Origin: Anas platyrhynchos
Lineage: Eukaryota; Chordata; Aves; Anseriformes; Anatidae
Direction: 5' to 3'
Length of the DNA stretch: 64,000 nucleotides
Assembly: GCF_047663525.1 (NCBI RefSeq)
Contig: NC_092589.1
Span: 25,665,001 to 25,729,000 of the forward strand
Below, in pieces: positions 14,960 to 50,800 of this stretch (position 1 is its first letter; each line of letters begins with the position of its first letter). The notes beneath the pieces were generated by a model that saw nothing but the letters and a program-made list of their open reading frames with translations, had not been told where the DNA came from and made no database searches. Made by a program: the position numbers and the translations under genes.

Positions 14960-15010
14960 TTACAAGGCAGAGTTCAGAAATTCAAGCAGCTCTGCGCGGT
15001 TCCGATCTCT
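14960..15010 (-). CDS. Basic-protein gene, coding exon 6 (C-terminal cap)
   Basis: The acceptor is CTTTTCTGCCCTGCAG, with AG at 15012-15011. Only 51 nt are coding: RDRNRAELLEFLNSAL and the TAA stop at 14962-14960. The sudden non-repetitive, amphipathic composition after a long lysine tract, with the frame kept, argues for real coding sequence. Confidence 0.86.
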   Translation of the reverse strand, partial: RDRNRAELLEFLNSAL

Positions 15011-18000
15011 CTGCAGGGCAGAAAAGCAGAGGCAGCAGATCAACAGCCCTGTACTCAACTGGCCAAGGCTGCACAACCCTGTTTTCTGCAGGGCCTTGAC
15101 ATGCTGGCACCCTGCACAGCAAACGCTACCACATCCAAACACCAGGGTTTTACCATCTCCCAGATCGCTGTGAGTGCCTGGAGGAAGCGCAAGGCAATGG
15201 GTAACTCAGGAGAGAGACTTGAGGAGCCAAACTGTCACCGCTGCTATCTCATGATGTATTTTCTAGAGTGGCTCCCTGTGGAGGCTCCACTGGGTTGCCA
15301 TCACATAGCTCACAGCCCGCTCAGGAGGGAACTCGCAAGCAGAACAGATGCAATTTCTGCTGTCTGAAGCAACTTTCGCTGCACACACAGCAAGCCTTGT
15401 GTTCTGGGAAGTATCGTTTTCTCTGTGCATACGCAGCAGCTTGTAGCACAATAGAAAAGGAACCAGGAACTTCGTTTCTTGCTTTACATGAGAGACAGCC
15501 TAAACTGAACACTTAGTTTCCAGTGTTTTTAAAATCACAGTTTATGAAACATTCATTGATTCTTAAAATATTGTGAATAACGGGTATTGTTCAATTCTGC
15601 ATGTTCATGACTAGGGCCACTAAACAAAAAAAGACCAGTGCCAAATATTTGACAGCAAACACTGAAGCAAGCAGGTTACTGGGAGAAGGCTAGTAAGCAT
15701 TCAGCATAATTCAAGGTAAACCTTACTGCCACAAAAAGGAGATACTGTACTTTTGATCAAATCCAACTTGGAATGCTCAGGCCTGCCTTGGTAACTATAG
15801 AATAAACAGTTATGGCTAAGTCAGAACCCACTGAACGGGACACCTCAGCAAAGTATCACTTTTTAAACTTTTTAACTAAGTCAATGTATTGACTCATATA
15901 GAAGCCCTCTGCAGATAACTCTAAGGTATGGACATTGCTGAAAAGAGTGGCAATGTTTAAATGCTGAGTTTAAACACCCACAGCAATAGCAGCAAATACA
16001 ACCAATTCATGGTATCTAGTGCCTTGGGCATCTCAGCAGAAACACCTGACTGCTCTGAGAGAATGCATGAGCACTTGGTTCGGATACTACCATCTTTTTT
16101 TCTTCCTCTCTAAATAAGGGCTAGTCTCACACTCATTAAAAAGAACAGAGTAAAGCAGGAATTGCCACGTTTGATCACAGGAGACTGGAAAAAGCAGAGT
16201 ATGATCAAAAACAGCAGAAGCTAAATCAACAGGGAAAGGTGCGAATAAGCTAAATCTTATGGACTAAAATTCTGAGAACCTGCATGAGCATCCTTGGGTT
16301 TATCTACTCATGCCTGAGTAGTCCAAGACCACACATTTAACAAAACTTGCCAAAAGAATGCATTTACCTTTCTCAGGTGGCATCACAGCCACATTAAATG
16401 CTATAACCAATTTATAACCTGTAAAACCTACTCCTCTACTAAAGAGTACTGTTAGAAAAATATGAAAAGAGATTATATTTTCCATTAGGGATACGCAGAC
16501 TGTTTTAAGTATTACCTCTTTATCCTTCTTAGTTTTCTTTATTTTCATCTTAATTTTCTTTCCAGTTATCATGCTGTAGTTTTCATTCTTCTTTTTGTTT
16601 TTGAAGAACTAAAATGAGATCACACATGAGGAAAAAAAGCTTTATCTTGTCATGTTACAAATCTTAAAGAAAATTAGACAATAATCTTCTATACTTCCTA
16701 AATGTCTAAAAAACAGGGATACATTTCTGTTTGTTTATGACAAAATCGGTGCTGTTAAAAACATTTTTCTGACATGACATTGTTTAAATGAGAGACACAA
16801 TGGGAATTTTGACAAACAAGCATACCTTAGAAAGCTGGACAGGTCCTGTCTTCTCTCTCTTTTTCTTCTTTTCTTTCTTTTTTTTCATTTTATTCTCTTT
16901 TTTCCTTTTCTGTAAGTATAAGACACATACCATAGTGCTTACAGATTCGCTAGTGCAGAAAAAGGAAACCCACAGAGCCTTTTCATGCCCTGGATAGTCT
17001 AAACAGCCCCTACTGCTTACCCTCATCACTGCTGAATAGGTCCTATGTGAAGTACACAGAACATAATGCAGAGAAGTTGGCAACCCTTTGAAACAGAAAC
17101 AGTATGATCCCTGATTCTCTCTTTTTTTTTTTTTTTTTTTTAAATATATACCATCCAATAAATAAAATCACTGAGAAGGTCAGATAAAAATGAGAAGAGA
17201 AAAATTACAACACCCAGAAACTGTTATTCTCTGATTATAAACAGTTTCTTCTGACAGAAATTCTATGAAGTTATCAAGATCCCCACTTCTGCTCTTCAGA
17301 GACTACTCTAAATTCTAGGACCAGCAATGATTGTTAAAAGGCACCATAAATTATTTCTTCTTTGGTAAACTGTCAAGTGTACATCAGCTTAATCAGTTCA
17401 CCTGCTGTTAACACTAAAAGTGTGCTTGAAATTTACACAGCCACAGAAAAAAACAGTAAGCATTACATGATATTTAGAGTTACCAAAACACAAAGAACTA
17501 ATTTCTATTTGTTACCTACTCATTACTACTTGTTTGTTAATTACTCCTTACTGTTAGCAAAACTTTACCTTTTTATTGTGCTTTTCTTTTTTCCTTTTCT
17601 TCGATTTAGACTTAGGAGAATCTGGAAAAAAAACAACCATCTAGGGTTAGTATTCTGTAAAAAGCATTTGGTTTTGCATATAAATGTAGATGTAGATACA
17701 TAAAACATAAGAAGAAAATGCTTAAATTCAGCTGAATATATCAATACTGGTTGAAATTAATCCTGAGAAAAGCAACACATCAACTTACTGCCACTTACTG
17801 GTCTAACATGGAAACTGAAAATCACCTGAAAACATTATCACAGTACAAGGTAAATGAAAAACTTTTCCTACTTGCTCAGCTCCTTTTTCAAGTGTTTCTG
17901 TAAAGCTGAAACTCACGCATTCTATAAGCTGATCACAAATGCAAAGATTACACTATGACTGCGACGTAAGGATTTTGAGGCACCAGCTCTGACTATGGGA

Positions 18001-18866
18001 CTGTAAACCTAGAAAGACAGTGAAACAACCCACTAGTCTTCCAACAAAGCCTCACCTCTGTGCTCCGGAAGATCATGGAACAGATCTTCCAGGAGGTTAT
18101 ATGAAGGAAGGCATATGAAAAATAAGTAATTTGAGACTCCCAGCAGGACTTCTCCAGGGCCAAATCAGATTGGCCTGACCAAGCTGGTGGCCTTTGATGA
18201 TGGAGCGACTGCAGCAGTGGATAAGGGATGATGGTCTAATGTCATCTACCTGCTGAACATAGACCTAACCAATTTTATCACTTTACCCATATCTCTTCCA
18301 GCCTTGTTGTCACTTTGTGATGGTGTAGCCATATTTAAAATAAGCTTTAAATGTTTCCAGGGGTGCTGTCAAAACTGGTAAACATCAGGTGTACACAGTG
18401 GTAGCTTACCTCTGCTACTTGAAGAAGACGACCTTGACGATGAGCGTGATGAGGAGGAAGAAGAAGAGGATGCAGTACTAGAAGACGATGTGGATGAAAC
18501 GGATGATGATCTGCTTCTACTACGTTTTCGCTTCCTTTTTTCTTTACCTTAGGAAGACAGGAGGCAGCAGTGATGTGCCTGCTAGTAAGTATGGTCTACA
18601 AAGATGACTCTTACAGAAATTTAACACAGTAAACCGATATTTTGATAAGGTTTTTTCCCCCCCTTCCAATGTGCCACAGGGTATTGTCACTAGCTGGTGA
18701 TTATGGTACGCGTTACAGCCAAACACGGTAGCAGACACAAAGGATAACACGTAACACACACATCACCACTGCACCGGAGCTGATAACAGCACCTACCTCG
18801 GCCTTTCAGCTCTTCCTGTGAGGTGGCACAGAGCGTCCTGCTTTTCTCATCCTTCTGGCTATCCAT
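14960..18866 (-). CDS. Unnamed RS/lysine-rich basic protein, 162 aa, at the LINC00467 position
   Basis: Six coding exons on the minus strand join to 489 nt (18866-18797, 18547-18410, 17621-17569, 16909-16826, 16608-16516, 15010-14960), 162 codons plus TAA. All five joins keep frame and use GT-AG sites. Residues 1-23 begin MDSQKDEKSRTLCATSQEEL. Residues 25-69 are an Arg/Ser tract with about 30 serines. Residues 70-115 are Lys-rich (KKRKKEK, MKKKKEKKKKREK). Residues 109-162 are less repetitive: GPVQLSK, then YSMITGKKIKMKIKKTKKDK, ending RDRNRAELLEFLNSAL. Composition suggests a nuclear RNA- or chromatin-associated protein, but that is inference. I do not recognise the family with certainty. It shares orientation with TRAF5 and has its own CpG-island promoter. 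In human the same slot holds the lncRNA LINC00467. Confidence 0.85.
15011..16515 (-). other. Basic-protein gene, intron between coding exons 5 and 6
   Basis: This 1.5-kb intron has donor AAAGAG|GTAATA and acceptor CCCTGCAG. Nothing else was recognised in it. Confidence 0.8.
16516..16608 (-). CDS. Basic-protein gene, coding exon 5
   Basis: Acceptor CTCATTTTAG (AG at 16610-16609) and donor AAAGAG|GTAATA. It is 93 nt and phase 0 on both sides, coding residues 116-146: FFKNKKKNENYSMITGKKI and then a KMKIKKTKKDKE tail. This is the most informative, least repetitive segment of the protein. Confidence 0.86.
16826..16909 (-). CDS. Basic-protein gene, coding exon 4 (lysine-rich)
   Basis: Acceptor CTTATACTTACAG and donor TCTAAG|GTATGC. 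It is 84 nt, phase 0 on both sides, residues 88-115. It is almost entirely Lys/Glu until the last eight residues, TGPVQLSK. The plus strand over this exon is a long pyrimidine tract, a low-complexity stretch that automated predictors may mask. Confidence 0.83.
17122..17141 (+). repeat. T20 homopolymer
   Basis: A run of 20 T in an intron of the basic-protein gene (A-tract in the transcript strand). It is simple repeat, with no flanking retroposed sequence seen. Confidence 0.9.
17569..17621 (-). CDS. Basic-protein gene, coding exon 3
   Basis: Acceptor GTTTTTTTTCCAG (AG at 17623-17622) and donor AAAAAG|GTAAAG. It is 53 nt: it completes a split Asp codon and codes SPKSKSKKRKKEKHNKK (residues 70-87). 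It contains bipartite NLS-like basic clusters. Confidence 0.85.
18047..18265 (+). mobile_element. CR1 LINE remnant (reverse-transcriptase region)
   Basis: A decayed plus-strand frame reads LTSV..KIMEQI, then LVAF-DG-T-AVDKG and VIYL, the order seen in the CR1 ORF2 reverse-transcriptase core. In-frame stops and shifts break it. It lies in the intron between coding exons 2 and 3 of the basic-protein gene, antisense to it. Boundaries are approximate. Confidence 0.75.
18410..18547 (-). CDS. Basic-protein gene, coding exon 2 (RS domain)
   Basis: Acceptor CCTGTCTTCCTAAG (AG at 18549-18548) and donor AGCAGAG|GTAAGC. It is 138 nt, residues 24-69: KEKRKRKRSRSRSSS followed by serine-rich repeats broken by single Arg residues, an SR-protein-like tract. 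Serine codons are mixed (TCA, TCC, TCG, TCT, AGT, AGC), so this is not a simple trinucleotide expansion, which supports selection on the protein. Confidence 0.86.
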
Positions 18867-18868: not shown

Positions 18869-18984
18869 CTAGCACGAGACAAAAGCGCGTTCAGTAACAT
18901 CACCTGCAAAAGCCTTTGCGGAAAAAGGGCATGCCTCACCCTCCCATGAGGCAAAAATTAAGGCAAGCATCCTCCTACAGCAGG

Positions 18985-19400
18985 CACCGGCCGCCCGAGC
19001 CCTGCTTCGACCGACATGAGGCGATTTTTAATCATTTTTTCACGCCAGGGCAGCCACCGCGAAGGCGGCCGGCGCCTGACGGGGCCGCGGACGAGGCTGA
19101 GGCGCGCGGGCGCCGCCATTTCGTGGTGCCCGCCCGCCGCCGCCTCACGGAGCCCGCCCCGGCCCCGCACTTACCGGGGGCGGCCGCAGCGCTGCCCCGG
19201 GCCCCTCGGCACCTCGGCTGCCGACCCGGAAGGGTTACAGCGGCGACCCGGAGGTAGGAGGCGGTGGCTCCCAGCCCTTCCCGGCCCTCCCCGGCCCGGC
19301 ACCGCCTCCCGGCCCGGCGCTGAGCCACGCCATGCCCGGCCCGGTCCCGCCGGCGGGCTGCATGCAGCGCACCCGGCTCGGAAAAGCCCTAGGGCGTAGA
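18985..19400 (-). promoter_or_regulatory. CpG-island promoter of the basic-protein gene
   Basis: A dense CpG block contrasts with AT-rich flanks. It has two CCGGA cores, including an ETS-type CCGGAAG at 19226-19232, and a YY1-like GCCGCCATTT at 19112-19121. A strong minus-strand donor, CCCCCG|GTAAGTGC, ends at 19175 and pairs with the acceptor at 18869, so a noncoding first exon probably covers about 19175-19260. TSS position is inferred. A divergent plus-strand transcript is possible but not supported. Confidence 0.75.
19175..19260 (-). other. Probable noncoding exon 1 of the basic-protein gene
   Basis: The 3' end is fixed by the donor G|GTAAGTGC at 19175/19174. The 5' end is a guess from the position of the ETS-type motif near 19226. 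The intron to coding exon 1 is about 306 nt. Confidence 0.55.
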
Positions 19401-19564
19401 AAAAAGACACTCAAATAGTTACAAACGGTCAATAAATACATTAAAACATACCGTGTGTCCACGTAGAAATATCATACGCTCTTCCGTTACTTACTCCGCA
19501 CAGTATTATTGAAAAGGTTTTTGTCTTTTTTTCCACACAACATCAAAAATTCTTCCCGAACACT

Positions 19565-22318: not shown

Positions 22319-22896
22319 TCACAATTCCTCCAGATCAGTTAAATCCACAACTACTTTTAAGAACAGCGTGTCATCTTTAACATAGGTATTCTTTGTGTTC
22401 TCCAGAACCGTGTGCGGCACAAAGCGCGGGCATCCAGAGGCAATATTCATTTCTCCATCCGGCCTTTTGAAGCTGCTGCTGTTGGGGTCAGCTCTAAAGT
22501 TTTCCACAATGTGATTTTTTTTCCCACTTTGGTCCAACAGCATAAGCGTAACTTTTTGCTTGAAAGGCCAAGGCAACAATGAGTCAAACTCGCCTCTCAT
22601 GACTACAAAGTAAAGCGAGACGTGGGTTCCCTTGCCTGAGCCATCCCCATTCAGATATGCTCTCGCACATAACCTGTACCCACAGCGGCTGGTGTAAAAA
22701 GGCTGGCTGAATATAGAGAGCACACGGCCTTCCACTGCTTCTTTTTTCTTCATCTTATAGTCTGTGATTTTCCAAATTAATTTCCCACTGTAGCACGTGC
22801 CTTCCAAAAGCTTAAATCGTTCTTCATTTTTATTGAGCTGTGCTTTGTGAATATTGATTTGGAGATCATGTTTGCTGGATTGGCCTTCCAAAACAA
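22319..22896 (-). CDS. TRAF5: TRAF5 coding exon 10 (MATH domain)
   Basis: Acceptor TCTTTTTTTTCCAG. It encodes residues 362-553: the end of the coiled coil (INIHKAQLNKNEERFKLLEG) and the complete TRAF-C/MATH domain, stop TGA at 22321-22319. The single large 3' exon is usual for TRAF genes. Confidence 0.97.
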
Positions 22897-25800
22897 CTGG
22901 AAAAAAAAGAAATATTCAGTAAAATAAGACAGTCGGAACACTGGATACAAAGAGTGACCAGACTGGAGCTGACAGTATGTAAGAACAATACTGAGCAGAG
23001 ACTGTTAACTAATGCTAGCAGCACTGTGTCTGTTGACTTTTTAAAATTATTTTTATTATTGTAATTGCAGCAGGTAATTGAACAAGGTAAAACACGACTG
23101 CAAGCCAGATTTAATGTCTGACAACAGACACTACCACTGCTCACATCACAGTGCCTCAGGAATTCAGGAGCTGGGCCCTGCGGTGACACCGTGGAGTAGG
23201 GGAAGGTGGGAGGATGGAGCACACACTACCACGGGTTGGTCTTAGAAAGCAAGAATAAGCAAGTTATTTCTGGCTAAGAGCCACAGCTGACTGTCTGCAG
23301 TACCAGAGCCTTTACTTAGCCACCACAACATCAGCAAAAATCCCAAACCCACACAGAAAAGAGACAGAAGTCCCAACATACCTAAGCGCTGATCGTATGA
23401 CTCCATAAGGGCAATCTTCTGTTTTACATTTTCAATTGTGTCAAACAGGGGTCGCAAGTCTAGTTTACTTTGCTGCTGGTTTGCCATCTGTATTAGCTGT
23501 TTCACCTGCGATTCCAGACGTGCAGATTTATCCAGGTGACTGGCAAGAGCCTTCCCAGTTAATGCCATTGGAAGAGGGTGGGAAGTAGAGACAAGAGACG
23601 TGCATAAAATCAGCCATTCCATTTGAAACAGAGAAATCTTTAACATGTCAGCAATACCAGCTACAATGTGCAATCAATAGTCTGCTGCCTTAGGAACGTA
23701 TCCAAATGTTCCCTCTCTCAGCGTTTGCTGACTGAGAAACCATCCCTCATTCAGATCCATTCTCACTACAGTACTTCATTCAACTCCTTATTCGAATTTA
23801 CACCTTCCTATTTCCTATGATCTAGCCATGGGGATTTATTCAGTGTTTTTGCCGAGATAGATATTCAGACTTCTTTATTGGTTAAAAGGAGAAGACAATA
23901 CTGTACTGTAAAAAACAACAGCAACGGCAACAAACCAAGAAGGGCTTGTGAAATGTCTGGGAAGCAGCATTTGTTACTGTCTTGCTATTAATGACAACGG
24001 GATAAACGTATTTCAGGATGCAAGAAAGCAATCAGCCAAAAAGGTAAAATCACTGTCTCACCTGCGTGCTTACCATCAAGTTGCTATTTTTACCAAACAG
24101 TTGTGTAAACTGTCTGAATTCTTTCTCACACTTTTTAACAGCCTCTGCTAGCTGCTGGATTTTAATCTCTTTAGATTCCAGGCTCTTGTACAGGTCAGAT
24201 ATCTACAAACAGAAAAATACAGAGTAAAAACTCCAGGCACAACAAAACACCCAATGATTGCATTAAAACACATGTGATATACAGGAAAAAAGAAGAAAGG
24301 TTTATAATGCAAGGTCTCTAGCTGAGCTAGATAATTCAAATTTATGGATGAGTTCTGGCAAGTACGGAACATCCCTGCATCTTAAACCTGCCCAGCTGCT
24401 GCCCAGCTTACAAAGCAAGATTTTTAAGCCACTGTGTTAATGTGGATTGAGGCAGGAGGCCCTGCACTGCTCTGTACTTCCTCTACAGAAGGGACAGCTT
24501 GAGCGTCTAAGGGCTCCTGTTCAAAGCAATTTGACTGGTCTCTGAAACCTTAAAATGCTCTATCTGCAAACCTTGAGGCAACTGTAAGAAGAGGCTGAAA
24601 GCAAATGAGGTGAGCAATGGCAATGAGCCTCCCATTGTGCCTGCCAGAGAATACACGTGCCTGAGCACAAAGAGGTTTCCATCTAATTGCCTGACTTCAC
24701 TAGAAGAGCTTATTCTGACTTCTGAGGTGTGCAAAGACAATAAAAACAGTCTTTTAAAGTATACTTGAACTAAAACAGGCAACAAATGCAAAATCTCGTA
24801 TCGTCCTCCAAGCAGCCAAGGACTGTTGAAGAATGCTCATTAAATAAGAGTTACCTGTTCTTCCAATCTAGAGTTCTTGTCCAAAATCTGCAGCATGTGT
24901 TCCCTCAGGGCACCATTTTCATGTTCAGCAAGTTTCCCTCTTTTAACCTTAGTGAGGCAGAGGGAGAAGTGAAAGAATAAAATAATCAGATGCACAGATT
25001 TGTGAAGCTGGTGGGTAAAAATATATTGATGCAAGCACTTAAAACATCCCCTCTGTGACTTCGGAAGTCAGGGAATGGCAGTACTGGTTCTATGTGGTAG
25101 CATCTTAGGCAGTACTAGAAACGATTGTGAAAGAACAAAAAATGGTTATTTTGATTAATTATTCTGATTGGTTTGGGAGACAAATTCCAGTCCCAATACA
25201 AGCAAAATTTACAGAACAGTACCTTTATAAGACAGCCATACTGCTTATACGGGCAGTCTACTTCAGTCTCGGGACACACAGTGTGATGCTTTTCAATCTG
25301 CACATAATAACAAAAAGACTCGTAATAAAATAAATATTAAATTACTTATTGCACTGATAAAATCTGAATACTTGCATAAAGGGTGAGTAAAGGCCAATAT
25401 CATGACTGATCACGTAAAGAGGAAAATGAATATTCAGACAATAAGCAAGCTTGGTACTCTCCCATACTGCTAAATACCAGAGCTTTGCCATGACCAAATT
25501 CCTCATTTGTCAGGTGGGCCACATATCACTTACAGGACCAAACAAAGAAAATACTTGGAGTGATGAAGATTTATTGGTGCAAGCCAATGCTTGCGTCTCT
25601 GATGCAAGTTTCAGTTTTCATGGTAGTGTGCAATTTGCTGAATCACAGTATGTGGAAGAACTACCAGTACCTCCTTTTTCAGAATGATTTGTGAGCAGTT
25701 TTGGACACAAGGCACGGGATAATCAGGACAGTCATCTTTCTCATGATTCTAGGGAAAAAGAAAAGCAACACAACAGTTTGCATTTTTGTAAAGTAGTATA

Positions 25801-28800: not shown

Positions 28801-30648
28801 CTCAGAATGTGAATGGCTGAATTTCGATACGGCAAAGGGTGAAAGGGAGGATTTCCCTCCATTTTTATGACGCCTTTTAAATGGTCAGCCATACCTTGAA
28901 GTGTGAATTTAAGTATCTCTTATTGCAAGGTTTCATTCCGTCTATTGACACATTTCTTACAAAGCATCACAAAAGATGCTTTATACCAAAGCAATACTTA
29001 GTTTGTGAAATCACTAATGTTCTAGTTTGTTAAACTATCCAAAAAATACACAACCAGTCCTGCTAATTTACTAGCTGCAGAGCAGAATGCTAAACCAGGC
29101 ATACCTTCAATGTTCAAAAAAGCATTTGGGCTTTTGCACAAGTGCCAGGTAGTACAGAATACAAGAGAAAACAGTCTTGCTACATGGATTGGTACTAGAA
29201 GAAGGTGGTCACCTAACAAGTAAGGATGAGGAAAAGGCAGAAGCGTTTAACATCTTTTTTGCCTCATAATATAATAGCAATGAGAGATCTTGGGCAGCTT
29301 GGACTTTAGAGTTGGAGGATCATGACTGGGGGATCAGTGACTTTCCATCTGTGGTCACAAAACTGTAAGGCAAGAGCTGTATCATAACTCCCTGGGGCCT
29401 GACAGGATTTGCTTCCGAGAGCTGCAGGAATTAGTGGACGCTACAGCTGGAGCCCCCTCAACAATTTACCAAAGGTGGGGGCAGCCTGGGGAGGTCCCTG
29501 CTGACTGGCAGCCAGCACTACACCTGTCTGCAAACTGGGCATGAGAGAAGGCCCAGGAAACCACAGAGCTGCCAGTGCAGGCCACAGGCTGTCAGGTCTG
29601 GGGAAGAGGAAGCTGAGGGGCGGCCTCGCTGCTCTCTGCAGTTTCCCGAGGTGGGGAAGCACAGAGGGAGGTGTTGGGCTCTGCTCCTGGGAATCGATGG
29701 CAGGATGCATGGGAATGGCATGGAGCTGGGCAAAGGCAGGCCAGACTGGGCAAGAGGAAACATTTATTTACCCTCAGGGCGGTCAGACACTGGGACAAGC
29801 TTCCTAGAGAGGTGGTTGATGCCCCACGCCTGCCAGTGCTCAAGAGACAGCGAGGCAATGCCCTCAGTAACATGCTTTAATTTTTGGGCAGCCCTGAGGT
29901 GGCCAGGCACTTGGACTTGGTGGTCTTTGAAGGTCCCTTCCAACTGAACTATTCTACTCTATTCTAAAAATCAATGCAAGAAATACAAAATCCAATCTAG
30001 CTTGCCCCAGTTCTCTTTAAAGAAGTGATATGGAAGCAAATGAAAGCAATATTAATCTAACCACCAGTACCAACCAATAATGTGCAATAATGCAAAAAAA
30101 AAAATCACCTGAATAGTACGATAATAGAAAGGCAGACCTAGATGTTGTCTCTCTCAATAATGTTTAAGTTTACATCAAAAGCTTCCTTATGCTGACTTTC
30201 ATGTAGTTACCAAAGCAATCCTATATTCCTTACCAGCACCATGTAAGGTCATTAGAGATAGCTTTAAAAAGCTGAGTGTGCAGTCATTAAATTCAACAGT
30301 TTCCACTGACTCCTACATATTATCAGATGATTACTATAATTATGGCTTTTACTGTTGATTTATGAAAGGTGCTGACTTCTGTTCAGAACAGGAGGATGGG
30401 GAGCATGTAGATACAGAAGGAGTCTGTACTAACCGCAGGGTAAGAATGCACTGCTGGCAAAATCGGTGACCACATCCTGTCTGGTGGGGATTGTGAAGGA
30501 CTAGGTGGCAGTAGGCACACTTGTACCGGTCCTCTAAGGTTTCCACAAATTTGTAGTCAGCATCAGGTTCGAAGTCCAGAGAAACAGCACTGGCAGAGTT
30601 CTGGCGTGTGAAGATGCCTGAGAGACCAGCGAATTCGTCACAGGCCAT
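22319..30648 (-). CDS. TRAF5: TRAF5, TNF receptor-associated factor 5 (ten coding exons, complete)
   Basis: TRAF5 is a cytoplasmic adaptor for TNF-receptor family members such as CD40, CD27, OX40 and LTBR, and feeds NF-kB and JNK signalling (established). The joined CDS is 1,662 nt, 553 residues against 557 in human. The RING spans about 44-83 with ligands C44, C47, C59, H61, C64, C67, C80 and D83, the Asp-terminated form typical of TRAFs. Cys/His-rich TRAF zinc fingers cover about 92-250, a coiled coil about 250-395, and the MATH/TRAF-C domain about 399-545, including SRCGYRLCARAYLNGDG and FKRPDGEMNIASGCPRF. The end DLTDLEEL is TRAF5-like and differs from TRAF3. All nine introns are GT-AG and in frame. 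The start MACDEFAGLSG is the first ATG after the acceptor at 30654. The 5' noncoding exon and promoter probably lie far upstream, perhaps at the CpG island near 42.5 kb. Confidence 0.97.
23382..23550 (-). CDS. TRAF5: TRAF5 coding exon 9 (coiled coil)
   Basis: Donor CGCTTAG|GTATGT. It encodes ALASHLDKSARLESQVKQL and the stretch up to MESYDQRL. I placed the acceptor at GGGAAG|GCTCTTGCC (AG at 23552-23551) because it keeps phase 0 with exon 8; GCCAG|TCACC at 23540 breaks the frame. The chosen site has its pyrimidine-rich stretch somewhat upstream. Confidence 0.85.
24074..24202 (-). CDS. TRAF5: TRAF5 coding exon 8 (coiled coil)
   Basis: Acceptor near CAAACGTTTGTAG-type end (TTTGTAG|ATATCTG) and donor TTGATG|GTAAGC. 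It is 129 nt, residues 263-305, ISDLYKSLESKEIKIQQLAE followed by a heptad-rich stretch to FTQLFGKNSNLM. Phase 0 on both sides. Confidence 0.92.
24855..24947 (-). CDS. TRAF5: TRAF5 coding exon 7
   Basis: Acceptor CCCTCTGCCTCACTAAG and donor GAACAG|GTAACT. It is 93 nt, residues 232-262, with LREHMLQILDKNSRLEEQ, the start of the coiled coil after the zinc fingers. Phase 0 on both sides. Confidence 0.94.
25223..25297 (-). CDS. TRAF5: TRAF5 coding exon 6 (zinc finger)
   Basis: Acceptor TTATGTGCAG and donor ATAAAG|GTACTG. It is 75 nt, residues 207-231. It has the TRAF zinc-finger spacing H-H-T-V-C-P..V-D-C-P-Y-K-Q-Y-G-C. Confidence 0.94.
25671..25748 (-). CDS. TRAF5: TRAF5 coding exon 5 (zinc finger)
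   Basis: Acceptor CTTTTTCCCTAG and donor AAGGAG|GTACTG. It is 78 nt, residues 181-206, with NHEKDDCPDYPVPCVQNC, a TRAF-type finger. Confidence 0.94.
26064..26228 (-). CDS. TRAF5: TRAF5 coding exon 4 (zinc fingers)
   Basis: Acceptor ATGTGTCATAG and donor CATAAAG|GTAAGG. It is 165 nt, residues 126-180, with EHLQQCLFESLQC, LRKDLKDHLSQHC and CQYCNKYV, typical of the TRAF zinc-finger array. Confidence 0.95.
27056..27157 (-). CDS. TRAF5: TRAF5 coding exon 3
   Basis: Acceptor CTCCTTTACAG and donor TATCAG|GTGAGT. It is 102 nt, residues 92-125: VFRDNCCKREVLNLHVFC, then CNSKIILGRYQ. It follows the RING and opens the zinc-finger array. Confidence 0.95.
27158..28619 (-). other. TRAF5: TRAF5 intron between coding exons 2 and 3
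   Basis: A 1.46-kb intron holding a CR1 3' end at about 28.30-28.46 kb. No other gene was seen. Confidence 0.85.
28298..28462 (+). mobile_element. CR1 LINE 3' end with ATTCTGTG tail
   Basis: The segment reads GTGGAGTCACCATCCCTGG, TTCAAAAGACGTTTAGATG, TTAGAGGTTGGACTCGATGA and TCTTCCAACCTAGAAATTCT and ends in repeated ATTCTGTG, the defining CR1 3' signature of bird genomes. It lies in a TRAF5 intron, antisense to the gene, and is 5'-truncated as most CR1 copies are. Confidence 0.95.
28620..28677 (-). CDS. TRAF5: TRAF5 coding exon 2 (end of RING)
   Basis: Acceptor TGTAATCTAG and donor CACGAG|GTAAGT. It is 58 nt: it completes the split Arg codon and codes ELNAVPTCPVDKETIKMHE, which contains the last two RING zinc ligands (C80 and D83). 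Confidence 0.95.
28678..30433 (-). other. TRAF5: TRAF5 intron between coding exons 1 and 2
   Basis: A 1.76-kb intron with donor CTGCG|GTTAGT. Nearly half of it (about 29.18-29.97 kb) is CR1 sequence. No other gene was seen. Confidence 0.85.
29180..29965 (+). mobile_element. CR1 LINE copy with ORF2 remnants, internally deleted
   Basis: The 5' part still reads GGHLTSKDEEKAEAFNIFFAS on the plus strand, the linker before the CR1 reverse transcriptase. It then passes to 3'-end sequence (GACACTGGGACAAGCTTCC, GGTCTTTGAAGGTCCCTTCC) and an ATTCTACTCTATTCT tail. Most of the RT-coding sequence is missing between the two ends, so the copy is dead. It lies antisense in a TRAF5 intron. The left boundary is approximate. 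Confidence 0.85.
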
Positions 30649-30653
30649 GGAAG
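30434..30653 (-). CDS. TRAF5: TRAF5 coding exon 1 (start codon, most of RING)
   Basis: Acceptor GGTTTTTCTGTGCAG (AG at 30655-30654), then CTTCC and the ATG at 30648-30646 in a good context (CTTCCATGGCC). It codes residues 1-71 and two bases of codon 72, including FTRQNSASAVSLDFEP and the RING core YKCAYCHLVLHNPHQTGCGH. Donor CTGCG|GTTAGT. Confidence 0.95.
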
Positions 30654-31146
30654 CTGCACAGAAAAACCACACACAGGAAGAATCCTGTCAAATGCTCACA
30701 GTTGGTCACATCACCTCAGCTACAGCTTACAGCGGACTGCAACCCGTCTGCAGGTTTCCATTTGCAGAAAGGTCCAACAGATTTCAGAGGGGAATGGGGC
30801 ATCGACTACAGAAGAACAGCATAAAGCTCAGAGGACCACAAGATAACATTTACATGACAAGCACTAAAACACATTTTATAAGAAGCTTCACAATCTGAAA
30901 ACTATTCCCCAGAACAAAGTCAAAATAATCCTTAATTCCTTAATCTTTTTGCAGCAGCTGATAGTCTCAAAAAATTAAACAGTCAGAGCTGCAGTCGGGG
31001 AAAGCAGAGGCCAAGTCGTGACCTTAAGGTTTGCCAGGAAAGTCTACACTTAACCACTTAACATAAAGCCCTCCCACATGGTATTCCGAATTCACTGCAC
31101 TGGTGCAAGCAGAAGACAGCTTTGTGATTCGTGGCAAGGAACATAC

Positions 31147-31168: not shown

Positions 31169-32873
31169 GGGAGCAAGTAGATTTTACCTTCAGTTTAGGT
31201 GTTACAGCAGTCAAAGCCTCTTAACTTGACATCTTTCTTTTTCCAGTTGATCACTCATAGCAGTAGACTATACTCTTATTTTTTCAAAAATTTACTTAAT
31301 TATGTGCAAGTTCTTGGCTATTTTAATCCTGCCTGCAAGATGTGATGGAAAAAAAAAAAGTAAGATTGCAATCAGAAATGTGACAGAAGTTTTTCACTCA
31401 ATTTATAAAAGCTCATGGCAGATGAATGCTATGTTAGTTTTCTAAAGGAAAAACCAGCAACATTTGTTTCCAGTCCTAATAGTCACAAACCTTAATGCTT
31501 GCCCTGGTCCTTCAATCTCGCAGTACTTTTTTGCAAGCAGCCCGAGACCTAGAGCTGCTCAGGTCTTCATTTCTTGCAGCTCTGCATTCAGAAGACATTT
31601 ATACTCACAGGATGTGTACAAACACGCAGTGCCTGCCACAACCACCTCCTCTTAAGTAAAAAACGTAACTCAAGAGTTTGCTCTTCGGCTCGTGTTTCTG
31701 TACCTCATTCCTGACAGCACAAAACTCACTCTGAACAGGCGTTATGATGAGGCAATTAAAACACTTACGGTCCATCTAAAGCACTGCCTGTAGGGTTATA
31801 GCGATGCAGAAGCTTTTTATTTGTGTGAACTCTGAGGCACCCTGCGACAGAGCTTTGGCTCTCAGGACGCTTCATGGGGAGGTGCTCGATTTTGTGGCCG
31901 CACTTCAGCAGGCTGCTTCCCTGCGGGCACATCACCCTCCCTGTCAGTCACCCGAGTCACTTTTACTGGCAGCAGCACCTCCCCGAGAGGTCTGACTCAG
32001 CTCCTGCAAGGTCACAGAGGGTGCATGCTGCTTTAGCGGGGAAGCAGAGCTGGCACATCACCATCAGCAACCCCACAGCTGGCATGAGGCAGCACACCAA
32101 GCGCTGATGCACTGGCACGCCACGTTCGGCTGTGGGCTGCTGGCCTTAGAAAGCAGCGATGAGTGCAGTGCAGCATGGAGCTCAAACATCTCCTGGGGCT
32201 CAGAAAGCAATGTGCATTTTCTTTGCTGCTTCGAAATACCACTCTGGGAAGGAGATCCTGCAGGCAGAGAGCCGTGTCTCCTCGTAGGCTCCGTGGGGTG
32301 CCCACCCACCAGCCTGCAGGACAGGAGGTCAGGGTTGTCAGTCAGCACTGATCATGTTGCCTGACCCTTCCTCATCTTGAAAACAGGGTTTCCATTCCTC
32401 TGGTGCTTAATAAGGAGCGATTTGATTTTCCTCATGCCCAGCAGGGACCTGAAGGAGCAGCATAAAGGGCTTACCAGCCTCACGCCTCAGCCCAGTGACA
32501 GGGGCCTCCATGGCAGGTGAGCAATGGCCGCAGTGACCTGTGCAGCATGAGCCATCTGCAGGCAAATCTGCTATGAACCCACTGCTCAGAGGGACCCCGA
32601 AAACATATTTCCCTCCTCTTGACTACAAATGCCCCTTCCTGTTCAAGGAACACCCAATTTCTCCAGTCCTATCACACTCCAGGCCTTGCATTGTCCAGTG
32701 TTATGGACTTAGCAAGTTGATGCTGCACTGTGTAAAAAGCATACCAAAAAAAACCACGCCACAATTATCAACTTTTGCCTTTAAGGGTCTGCCCCAAGAC
32801 CCATCCACACCCTGACAACTCAGGACATTTACCGTCACCGCCAGCTGTTTTATGACTGCTGTAGGGTTGGTGG

Positions 32874-32993
32874 CCATTTTTGTGAGGAAAGAGGCCACAG
32901 GACATATTTTTGTGAGGAAACAGGCCACATGGGACATTTTTGTGAGGAAACAGGCCATGCAGGGCACTTTTGTGTGAAAATGGGCCATACGAC
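32874..32993. repeat. 30-bp tandem repeat, four copies
   Basis: The core TTTTTGTGAGGAAA followed by AGGCCA recurs with exact 30-bp spacing (TGTGAGGAAA starts at 32881, 32911 and 32941, and a diverged TGTGTGAAAA at 32971). Because 30 is a multiple of three, each frame carries a ten-residue repeat, which creates open frames on the minus strand. Confidence 0.93.
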
Positions 32994-33853
32994 ATGCATT
33001 GGCTCCACTAAGGACCCCAGGGCAGCCTCAGCCCCTTGATGGCCCAGCATCTTCCTGCCATTTCCTAGCACAATCCTTCAGCCCTGGGTCAGCTCTTCCA
33101 CAGGGCTGGGACTGAGCAATGTTGGGCATACCTCAGAAAAGGGGCACCTTTTGCCATATACCAAAGCCAGGCCCACTGGACTAGGTGAGCCCTGAGGAAG
33201 GCTGAGGTGACGCCTGGGTGACAGACCCGCCACCAGCCAACGCTCAGTGTGAGGTGTCCCCACCGCCACCACAGCGGCTCCGGGCTGTCTGTAGAAGCCC
33301 TTCTTCCCCTCCCAGCCCGCGCCTGTTCTCTTTGAGATGAAACCAGTGGGAAACCATCGGGGGAAAAAGCACATTTTGCGCGTGTGCGCCCGCCGCTGGT
33401 TGACTGAATCAGCTTCCTGCTTGCGCCAGTGCCCGGCCCACGCTGGAGCTGAGGTGTGCTTTCACTTCTGCCTGCTCACAGCCGCGAACAAAGCAAAAGC
33501 ATTGCTTCTTTGCATATGTGGCGAGTTTTTCTAGTGTGTGTGTGAAGTGCAGTATCGTTTGAAAATACACGGCGCTGGCAGGCCCGTGCTACGTGGCGAT
33601 GCTCTTGCAGCAGCCACGCACCACAAAGCTGCAGAGAGATTTTCATTGCGACCCCAGTGCAAAAGCACCCCCAGAAATTAAACAATCTATAGGCACTGAA
33701 AACCTACATGTCAAAGTTGGATCTCTATACGACAAAATGATCAGAATTAGCTTTGACCCCATGTTAGAGAAGCGGTTTGAATCACTTAGGCCCAAGTCCT
33801 GTGAAGAGGTACCAAAGGGTGGGAGCTGAATGGCAGCACAGCACAAAGCTGAT

Positions 33854-47824: not shown

Positions 47825-50800
47825 CTGCACAAAGGACAAAGACAAGATTGCATGAACAGCCGTCCCAGCCGGAATGCCGTGCCGTTGGGTTGCCACTGTC
47901 CACTATACAGGAAACAGCATTTATCAAACAAAACCGAAAAACTCAGAAGTTACTGAAAAGAAATCGCCAACCAAAATATTATAGACAGCAGAACTAAAAA
48001 TATTTATGAAGCAAGAGTCTTCTTTCTAGAACAAGATCTGCATTTTAACAATAAAACAGTAACGTGATCGTCACTATGCAAGGTGCCGTCCTGTTCCCAG
48101 CGGGTTAACGACATTGGCTGAAGTTCTATGCAAGCTTATCATCATTCTTTAGAATGTGGTTTGCCACTCCACACCAGTTAACCTTACATTACATCACTAA
48201 ATAAAATGCTGTTCCTCAACCCATGCTTACTTATATCTGGTACACAAAACACACCTCATCTTCTTCATCAGTGCTCTTTCCTGATGGCACATTAGAAGTA
48301 TTTTTTGTGTCCTCCCCTAAAGCAGAAGCATCACCATTAGAAGCCAGGGTTCCTTGTTCCGCTTCCCATTCCTGCAATACCTCCTCTAAGTTAAACCGAC
48401 GCCTGTAGTTTACAAAGAAGTTCTTCACTTGGCCAACAGTCTTGTTGCCAATTACATCTGCAATAGCTTGAAAATCTTTACCATATTTGCGGACACCTGG
48501 AAGGCAAAGTAAATAACATAGCTGTGAAGGATCAGTCAGACACAGCTACGTGTGATGTATTTATAGAGAGAACCTACGGGACCTGCAAACCAACGACTCA
48601 CTAACTAGGCGGACTTCTCAATTAGGAGAAGGCCTCAATTTCTATTAAAACAACAAAAAAAATTAATTGCATAGCTATAAACACATAAATGAAGAACTTT
48701 AATAAAAGGTCATTACCCACTCTTCTTAAAGATCCTGGCTTACTCACCAAACCAAGCCTCCCAACCTAAAACCACAGAGATCTGGCCTCTGACAAATGCA
48801 GTAAATCTTTCAGTATGCTTGGACTGAAGGCAGAAGCCCAAGCTAAGTTCAAGGTGGGAGAGGGAGGGTGACTGAACAAATGTGTACAGCTGTAACAAGA
48901 CATGCCAAGGAACAAACATTGACAGCTTCGATAGGGCAGCCTCCATGCCAGCTGCCCACCACCTGTGCGAGAGCTGGCCAGCAGCAGCACTGAGGGCAGC
49001 AGGCGCGGGACCACGCACAGGGGCAGAGTTCTGGGAGTCCCAACACACGGCTCATCCCTCCATGTGTAGAACGCTCTACTGAGGCTACCGAGGGTAACCA
49101 GCCAGCATTCCCTGGACAAAGCCTTTTTAAAGCTTTAATTCACCATTCAAGCTGGGTAAACAACTCTGGAGTTTTGGGACAACCACCTAGGGGAAAGTAA
49201 ATAAATATAAGCTATTGGGGTCTGTTTCTAAGAAGCCCAGCACAAGCCTGCAGGATCAAATTCTCCGGCAAGAAGCAGCATGACAGAAGATCTTTGCATT
49301 GTTCATTTCACTCATTTTCACATCAATATCAGTAGGTTACAAGTACTCCAAAAGAAAACACTGTTGAACCTTTCCAAAAATACCAACATGGGCTTTTTAA
49401 AGTTCTAAAATGGCATTTGCATATAACAACAACTACAGGTCTACAGACTTTTGTAATTTTAAACCTAAAATTGGAATTATAATCTGAACTTTATTGGTTC
49501 TCTGTTTTAATTAGGGTACATGTCTAGTTACTCCTCTCTATTGCTTAAGAAGAAAATCCCGAAGCTCTCCAGCATCCTTGAACACAGCTGTACAATCTAT
49601 TTTTAATCATAGAGTGGCCAGAGGTCTAGAGCCTAGAGAAATTAAACATTACATGGTTGTACTCTATGGTACTGTAAGGCACACTCCAGGCTCAATAAAC
49701 AGAAGCCTCTTTTTTGCTCCCAGCTATGCATGAGTGAATTACAATTTGACTCCTGATGTGCAGCTCCTGATAGCTGAACTCATTCAGAATATACTGCAGT
49801 GTTTAGAGGACAGGCATCCTGTCTCATGCCTCATTTCATGTCTTGCTTCAGAAAGTGGAACGGAAGATTCAGAAGGTGAGAGTTGTTTCCAATCCGAAAG
49901 CTATGCTTCTTTTCAACTTAACTGTTAACAGTATGATCTTCATCTTGTTCTGCTATTTTCTACTCGCTTCACTAATAGGCCTTTCTGACGTGGCACGTAC
50001 ACTCTCTAACATTTAAGAGAAAATTTCAGCTCTAGGAGAGTAACAATTACTGTAGCTGAAGCTGATGCTACAACTGTCAAGAGCCTGGCTACATTATTTA
50101 AGATCTTTTCTTGGGCATACAAAAGAATCCAACCTCTCTGACTGCCAGAACCTTGGAAAGAAAACAAAAGGACCTAGCAGAGCCTTGTGGGAGAGAGCAT
50201 ATCTAGGCAAGGCAAATACAGGGATTTGGCTTTTCATTCTCAGGTGTTCAAGGTACTAGCTAAAGGGGTACTAACCCCTTAACAGCTGCACATGCCCACA
50301 GAGCACTCCCACCAGTGTTTTAATATTGATTGCCCTGTCATTATGACCCTTGCTAATTTATGATGGCCGTTAAACGTCTACAGCAACGTATCTAACATCC
50401 TGCAGAAAGTGTCCAGCAGAACAAAGCACATTTTTGCTTGAAAACTGTTTCAGACCTTGAGTGATTTCAGGATTTTCTGTTATTATGCTCTCCATATTTC
50501 TTCCTTCCCCTTAACCTGCAAAACAGCTGAACCTGTTAGCTAACTTGAAGCTGGCAGATGCAAGGTCTTAAAGCCTATTTCCAAGCAGAAAGTTGGAAAA
50601 CTGCATCGCGCCTTCCCTGAGAGCCCAACGATGAGAAACATCTAAAGAAAAACAAGCTTAATCAGTTTATCTGCACACAGCACTTATCATTTTGGACTCT
50701 TTTCAGTGTTATTTTGTACTGCTATAGCATCACCACAACGGCTTATACACAACGCCGTAGTAAAGCATTTTTAAGCTGCATCAGAAACAGAGGGAGTTCA

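Follow-up and report, generated by a model that had tools for sequence, protein, structure and literature searches.

In the human genome, the interval between TRAF5 and RD3 holds LINC00467 (C1orf97), and the question raised by the same interval in the duck Anas platyrhynchos is whether the bird carries a protein-coding gene there and whether the two share an origin. We analyzed a stretch of 64,000 nt (NC_092589.1, positions 25,665,001 to 25,729,000; here called the window), for which a preliminary description had proposed six minus-strand exons that join in phase into a 162-residue protein. It had also proposed that an ancestral coding gene either decayed to a long noncoding RNA (lncRNA) in mammals or survives there as an unrecognized remnant. 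The exons, their phases, and the 162 residues were all borne out. We consider it fairly probable that this is a real single-copy coding gene, the positional counterpart of human LINC00467, with the transcript and a polyserine exon persisting in mammals. As far as the sequence can tell, the most likely reading is a genuine coding gene in the bird and a common origin with LINC00467.

The six coding exons, joined from 18866 to 14960 on the minus strand, give 489 nt including the TAA stop, with GT-AG at all five introns and phases of 0, 1, 1, 0, 0, and 0 on entering exons 1 to 6 (Table 1). Splice sites were scored with an unfitted matrix and ranked against every GT or AG on both strands of a 200-kb control set from this genome. 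Donors 1 to 5 fell within the top 0.5, 0.2, 1.5, 0.8, and 3.8% of control GT sites, and acceptors 1 to 5 within the top 3.2, 1.6, 3.0, 17.7, and 0.5% of control AG sites. The correctness of all phases, on which the preliminary description had remarked, holds but is a weak argument alone. Dynamic programming on 40 strands of 10 kb of control DNA found six-exon chains with a splice sum of at least the model's own 43.5 in 10 of them, and with control strands scoring equally well, we rejected the splice sum as proof of a gene.

The composition of the encoded protein separated the locus from the controls. A search for the chain richest in lysine, arginine, and serine (K/R/S) under the same splice thresholds, an objective picked after the protein had been seen, recovered exons 1 to 5 to the base with a score of 74.2. 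Its maxima elsewhere were 21.2 in the 40 control strands, 23.2 in 18 tiles of the window from 22000 to 64000, and 4.4 on the opposite (plus) strand of these 10 kb. The amino-acid entropy of exon 2 was 1.75 in the used frame, compared with 2.59 to 3.59 in the other five frames, and none of 19,740 overlapping control windows was as low. This exon uses all six serine codons, with AGY interleaved with TCN, and Tandem Repeats Finder reported no tandem array in it. Because the six codons are mixed and no array was reported, the polyserine tract is more likely to reflect constraint on the protein than a repeat in the DNA. When each exon was shuffled with its dinucleotides preserved, the chances of the used frames being open multiplied to 6.8e-5 (2.7% for exon 5 alone).

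Several observations pull away from a coding gene, the splice sums of the control strands among them. The K/R/S search preferred a last exon at 13848-13780 to exon 6, which is the least certain exon of the model; because the best chain ends elsewhere, exon 6 rests on its acceptor and on the predicted C-terminal helix. Frame-specific entropy was looked for in exons 4 and 5 and was not seen in either; Tandem Repeats Finder placed an imperfect 9-nt repeat inside exon 4, and the frame of exon 5, left unspliced, runs to 102 codons. The assumed first exon contains two in-frame upstream ATGs (19363 and 19333, minus strand) from which a short frame starts, and the gene call itself was drawn from the sequence of one genome. 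The splice sums, exons 4 and 5, and the origin of the call in sequence alone would also suit a chance exon chain inside a noncoding bird transcript. Set against the K/R/S score of 74.2 versus 21.2 in the controls, the frame specificity of exon 2, and the openness of the used frames, such a chain appears highly improbable to us.

The predicted protein has a mass of 18.7 kDa, a pI of 10.9, and a net charge of about +42 at pH 7. Residues 24 to 69 are serine rich, with 10 RS/SR dipeptides, residues 70 to 107 are lysine rich, and residues 108 to 162 are basic, ending in RDRNRAELLEFLNSAL. AlphaFold2 run on the single sequence gave a predicted TM score (pTM) of 0.27 and no overall fold, with helices at residues 74 to 107 and 142 to 161 of high local confidence; the hydrophobic moment of the last helix was ordinary, being reached by 0.40 of shuffles. 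We infer a mostly disordered, strongly basic protein. The polyserine exon (18410-18547, minus strand) is 138 nt long and in phase 1 at both ends, a symmetric cassette whose skipping would be in frame and leave 116 residues. If the exon 5 donor were left unused (16608-16300, minus strand), the frame would continue to a total of 102 codons, exon 5 included, and end in a different, hydrophobic C terminus.

No known domain was recovered. In Pfam up to an E value of 10, the best match had an E value of 0.11, which is at chance level, the C-terminal piece had none, and no RNA recognition motif (RRM) was among the matches. An SR protein is defined by at least one RRM and an RS region of at least 50 residues with more than 40% RS/SR content. 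The duck protein lies outside this definition on either count, having no RRM and, in its best 50-residue window, 10 RS/SR dipeptides covering 14 residues (28%, counted by hand). A match to SR-25/ARL6IP4 (PF10500) reached 9.4 bits (E value, 0.95), below the curated cut-off of 40 bits, and the PF10500 matches above the cut-off sit on contig C16. When the 55 residues at the C terminus were searched against PDB sequences, only two matches came back, with E values of 1 and 2, and Rfam at its gathering threshold gave no match in the window.

Paralogues were then sought within the genome. The query from the C-terminal part found its own two longer exon pieces and five weak low-complexity matches (E values, 0.12 to 8.4). 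The N-terminal query found three pieces of its own exons, an RS-rich frame on C3 (E value of 0.0028, reflecting composition only), and two chance matches. By composition, the polyserine tract came closest, among the matches found, to a 379-codon RS-rich open frame at C3:78038840-78039079 (78.04 Mb), which we presume to resemble PNISR. With SR-related and polyserine nuclear proteins (PNISR, SRRM2, and ARL6IP4), the duck protein shares a polyserine/RS tract adjoining basic tracts. Unlike them, it has neither an RRM nor another domain, its RS dipeptides are sparse, and the genome has an SR-25/ARL6IP4 family gene elsewhere, on C16.

These properties suggest how the gene may work. Transcription would start from a CpG island, and the product would be the basic, mostly disordered protein just described. 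Going by composition, the basic tracts could take it into the nucleus, the serine tract, if phosphorylated by SR-protein kinases, could join speckle or ribonucleoprotein (RNP) condensates, and the C-terminal helix may be a docking site for a partner. LINC00467 would be the mammalian continuation of the transcript, retaining the polyserine exon at least, and the LINC00467 peptide ASAP may be what remains of the ancestral protein. That the speckle or RNP role is read from composition only tells against this picture.

Whether LINC00467 is the counterpart of the duck gene was approached first by position. The duck gene and the MATH-domain exon of its neighbor, named TRAF5 and not TRAF2 or TRAF3 by position, both lie on the minus strand, the gene is transcribed toward RD3, and human LINC00467 presumably lies on the same strand as TRAF5. 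The position claimed in the preliminary description stands: the RD3, MATH, RING, and Myb/SANT domains are ordered as in human, where a 1q32 deletion paper gives RCOR3, TRAF5, LINC00467/C1orf97, and RD3 (PMC3751720), and RD3 is immediately downstream of linc00467 (PMC3929584).

Homology was then examined with eight oligos printed for LINC00467 and 12 control oligos of other genes, each compared with the bird locus, with P values from simple shuffles and from dinucleotide shuffles. The quantitative PCR primer CCTTCTTCCTCATCATCGTC (PMC7171408), which translates to five serines written with four different codons, matches exon 2 at 15 of 16 bases (18463-18448), in the sense direction and with the serine codons in register (P = 0.001 and 0.011, respectively). 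TCGTCTTCAGGAAGCCAGAC and an overlapping small interfering RNA (siRNA) (PMC10494854) jointly match the end of exon 2 at 18428-18411 with one gap (P = 0.016 and 0.056). The two matches share exon and sense, are collinear, and lie in the serine frame; all 12 control oligos were unmatched (P of at least 0.07). TCGTC ends CCTTCTTCCTCATCATCGTC and begins TCGTCTTCAGGAAGCCAGAC, and if the two join there, as we infer, they read P-SSSSSSS-GSQT, an open serine frame of seven codons. Serine runs of at least five codons occurred five times in 400,000 nt of control DNA, those with at least four codon kinds once, and those of seven codons never. For the 3,508 nt given as the length of LINC00467 (PMC9541002; 2,028 in PMC10494854), this corresponds to 0.044 runs of at least five serine codons and 0.009 with at least four codon kinds, bird control DNA being an imperfect yardstick for a human transcript. 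Since two LINC00467 oligos match exon 2, the human RNA probably keeps the polyserine exon. The likeness of siRNA-2/sh2 to exon 1, at 9 of 10 bases, had a P value of 0.30 and was set aside; this oligo overlaps a 3′-end cloning primer.

The homology suggested in the preliminary description is upheld only in part by these oligos, as the other six of the eight were unmatched (P of at least 0.30), and that result is one of several that count against a shared origin. After correction for eight oligos, only CCTTCTTCCTCATCATCGTC remained below 0.05, and in the simple shuffle only. Both matches are short and TC-rich, a low complexity that weakens the test, and the joined 36-mer scores no higher than CCTTCTTCCTCATCATCGTC alone, being equalled by 10 of 1,560 control windows. 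The duck gene might, then, be coding and unrelated to LINC00467, sharing its interval by coincidence and its oligo matches through convergent TC-rich low complexity, to which the shortness of the matches, their dinucleotide-shuffle P values, the control windows, and the six unmatched oligos would all be congenial. We regard such coincidence as improbable, because both matches fall in the same exon, in sense, in order, and in the serine frame, serine runs of at least five with four codon kinds arose once in the 400,000 control nt, and the position of the locus agrees.

A common origin leaves the direction of change to be considered. An ancestral noncoding transcript could have become coding in the bird or sauropsid line, a polarity that a two-way comparison of bird and human and a protein of simple composition leave room for. 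A six-exon de novo gene of such length would be unusual, and the serine frame is also present in the human oligos; of all the alternatives, we give this one the least credence, as very improbable indeed. An ancestral coding gene remains our preferred reading.

The literature bears on what has become of that gene in mammals. The preliminary description had called LINC00467 noncoding, which agrees with its annotation as an lncRNA and with its treatment in several primary papers, e.g., PMC3929584 and PMC7171408, but is incomplete: reviews report that it encodes a 94-residue mitochondrial peptide, ASAP (PMC8649637, PMC11499885), and polysome association and detected peptides have been described (PMC9634437). 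Because of these reports, decay to an lncRNA is one outcome, and partial or full coding retention is the other; of the two branches of the preliminary description, the remnant kept by mammals is better supported than decay. A stronger form would make LINC00467 a misannotated coding gene, not a fossil, with mammals still making most of the protein. The reviewed peptide, the polysome association, the detected peptides, and the seven-codon serine frame of the joined human oligos are in its favor, whereas 94 residues are fewer than 162 and the RNA is handled as noncoding in the primary papers just named; we think it unlikely. A more specific form of the remnant reading, in which LINC00467, instead of being a noncoding RNA that arose in mammals, derives from an amniote gene for a polyserine/lysine-rich nuclear protein and ASAP is its truncated or frame-shifted descendant, is possible, and we put it forward tentatively. 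A four-exon horse transcript is listed as similar to C1orf97 (PMC3726457).

lncRNAs with coding ancestors are a known kind, exemplified by XIST, JPX, and FTX, and for 241 human lncRNAs a lost gene has been counted at the syntenic place (Hezroni et al. 2017, PMC5577775). As in those cases, a coding gene in a nonmammal, here recognized by sequence, stands at the place of a mammalian lncRNA; unlike them, a peptide has been reported from LINC00467. LINC00467 is absent from the main text of PMC5577775 (supplementary tables not searched), and the matches listed, judged by titles and starts of abstracts with supplementary files not searched, included no paper on its origin; the case may already be in print. 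The human RNA lies in the same TRAF5-RD3 interval as the duck gene and has two oligos matching its exon 2, whereas it is annotated as an lncRNA with a reported product of 94 residues, mitochondrial, in place of a basic protein of 162.

Much work on cancer treats LINC00467 as an oncogenic lncRNA. Descent from a gene that has stayed coding in birds would place it beside XIST, JPX, and FTX as an lncRNA with a known coding ancestor, and the duck protein would provide an evolutionary yardstick for ASAP, by which residues have survived and whether the mitochondrial role is ancestral, derived, or doubtful. Should the remnant reading be true, the effects of the RNA in cancer and the ATP-synthase role of ASAP would need to be read again against a splicing- or RNP-related ancestor. 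The duck gene may be missing from annotations, being of low complexity and easily masked.

The 5′ end of the gene shows a likely promoter. Four of the window's nine copies of GGGCGG lie within 18991-19183, resembling human linc00467, whose Sp1 sites are placed at -176 to -14 and, in intron 1, at +7 to +426 (PMC3929584). The acceptor that would partner the GTAAGT donor of the presumed first exon ranks within the top 8.1% of control AG sites, and joining that exon to exon 1 gives the start context CCCCGATATGG. The short frame at 19333-19363 is a possible upstream open reading frame, provided that transcription starts before both of its ATGs. Beside the CpG island, the AT-rich segment 19400-19750 (GC, 0.33 to 0.42) has a CpG observed/expected ratio of about 1 or above, as if the unmethylated region extended past the GC-rich island toward TRAF5.

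Table 1. Features of the duck locus and its neighbors (positions in the window)
Feature	Position	Strand	Details
Coding exon 1	18797-18866	minus	From ATG, residues 1-24; acceptor 2 bases before ATG
Coding exon 2, polyserine/RS tract	18410-18547	minus	Residues 24-70; phase 1 at both ends; frame-specific entropy, K/R/S search, two LINC00467 oligos
Coding exon 3, start of lysine-rich tract	17569-17621	minus	Residues 70-87
Coding exon 4, lysine-rich	16826-16909	minus	Residues 88-115; contains imperfect 9-nt repeat
Coding exon 5	16516-16608	minus	Residues 116-146; weakest splice sites of the model
Coding exon 6	14960-15010	minus	Residues 147-162 and stop; C-terminal helix; acceptor in top 0.5%
CpG island, presumed promoter and noncoding first exon	18900-19450	minus	GC up to 0.81; CpG observed/expected 0.8-1.3 in most 200-nt windows
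Consensus donor GTAAGT, presumed noncoding first exon	19169-19174	minus	Top 0.2% of control GT sites
Candidate poly(A) signal AATAAA	13482-13487	minus	1.5 kb past the stop
RD3 exon	419-883	plus	Pfam RD3, E 2.9e-40; faces the gene
TRAF MATH-domain exon, TRAF5 by position	22319-22915	minus	Pfam, E 2.4e-48
TRAF2/3/5 RING	30349-30687	minus	Pfam
Myb/SANT domain, RCOR3 by position	48231-48545	minus	Pfam

Two further observations concern the neighbors. At an E value of 0.001, the window matched the RD3 profile solely over its first part, positions 1-97; the part for the second exon was found only in an RD3-like gene on C5. At 32701-33077, overlapping frames repeat a motif some 10 residues long (FPHKN/FLTKM-like), probably reflecting a short tandem repeat within an intron of TRAF5.

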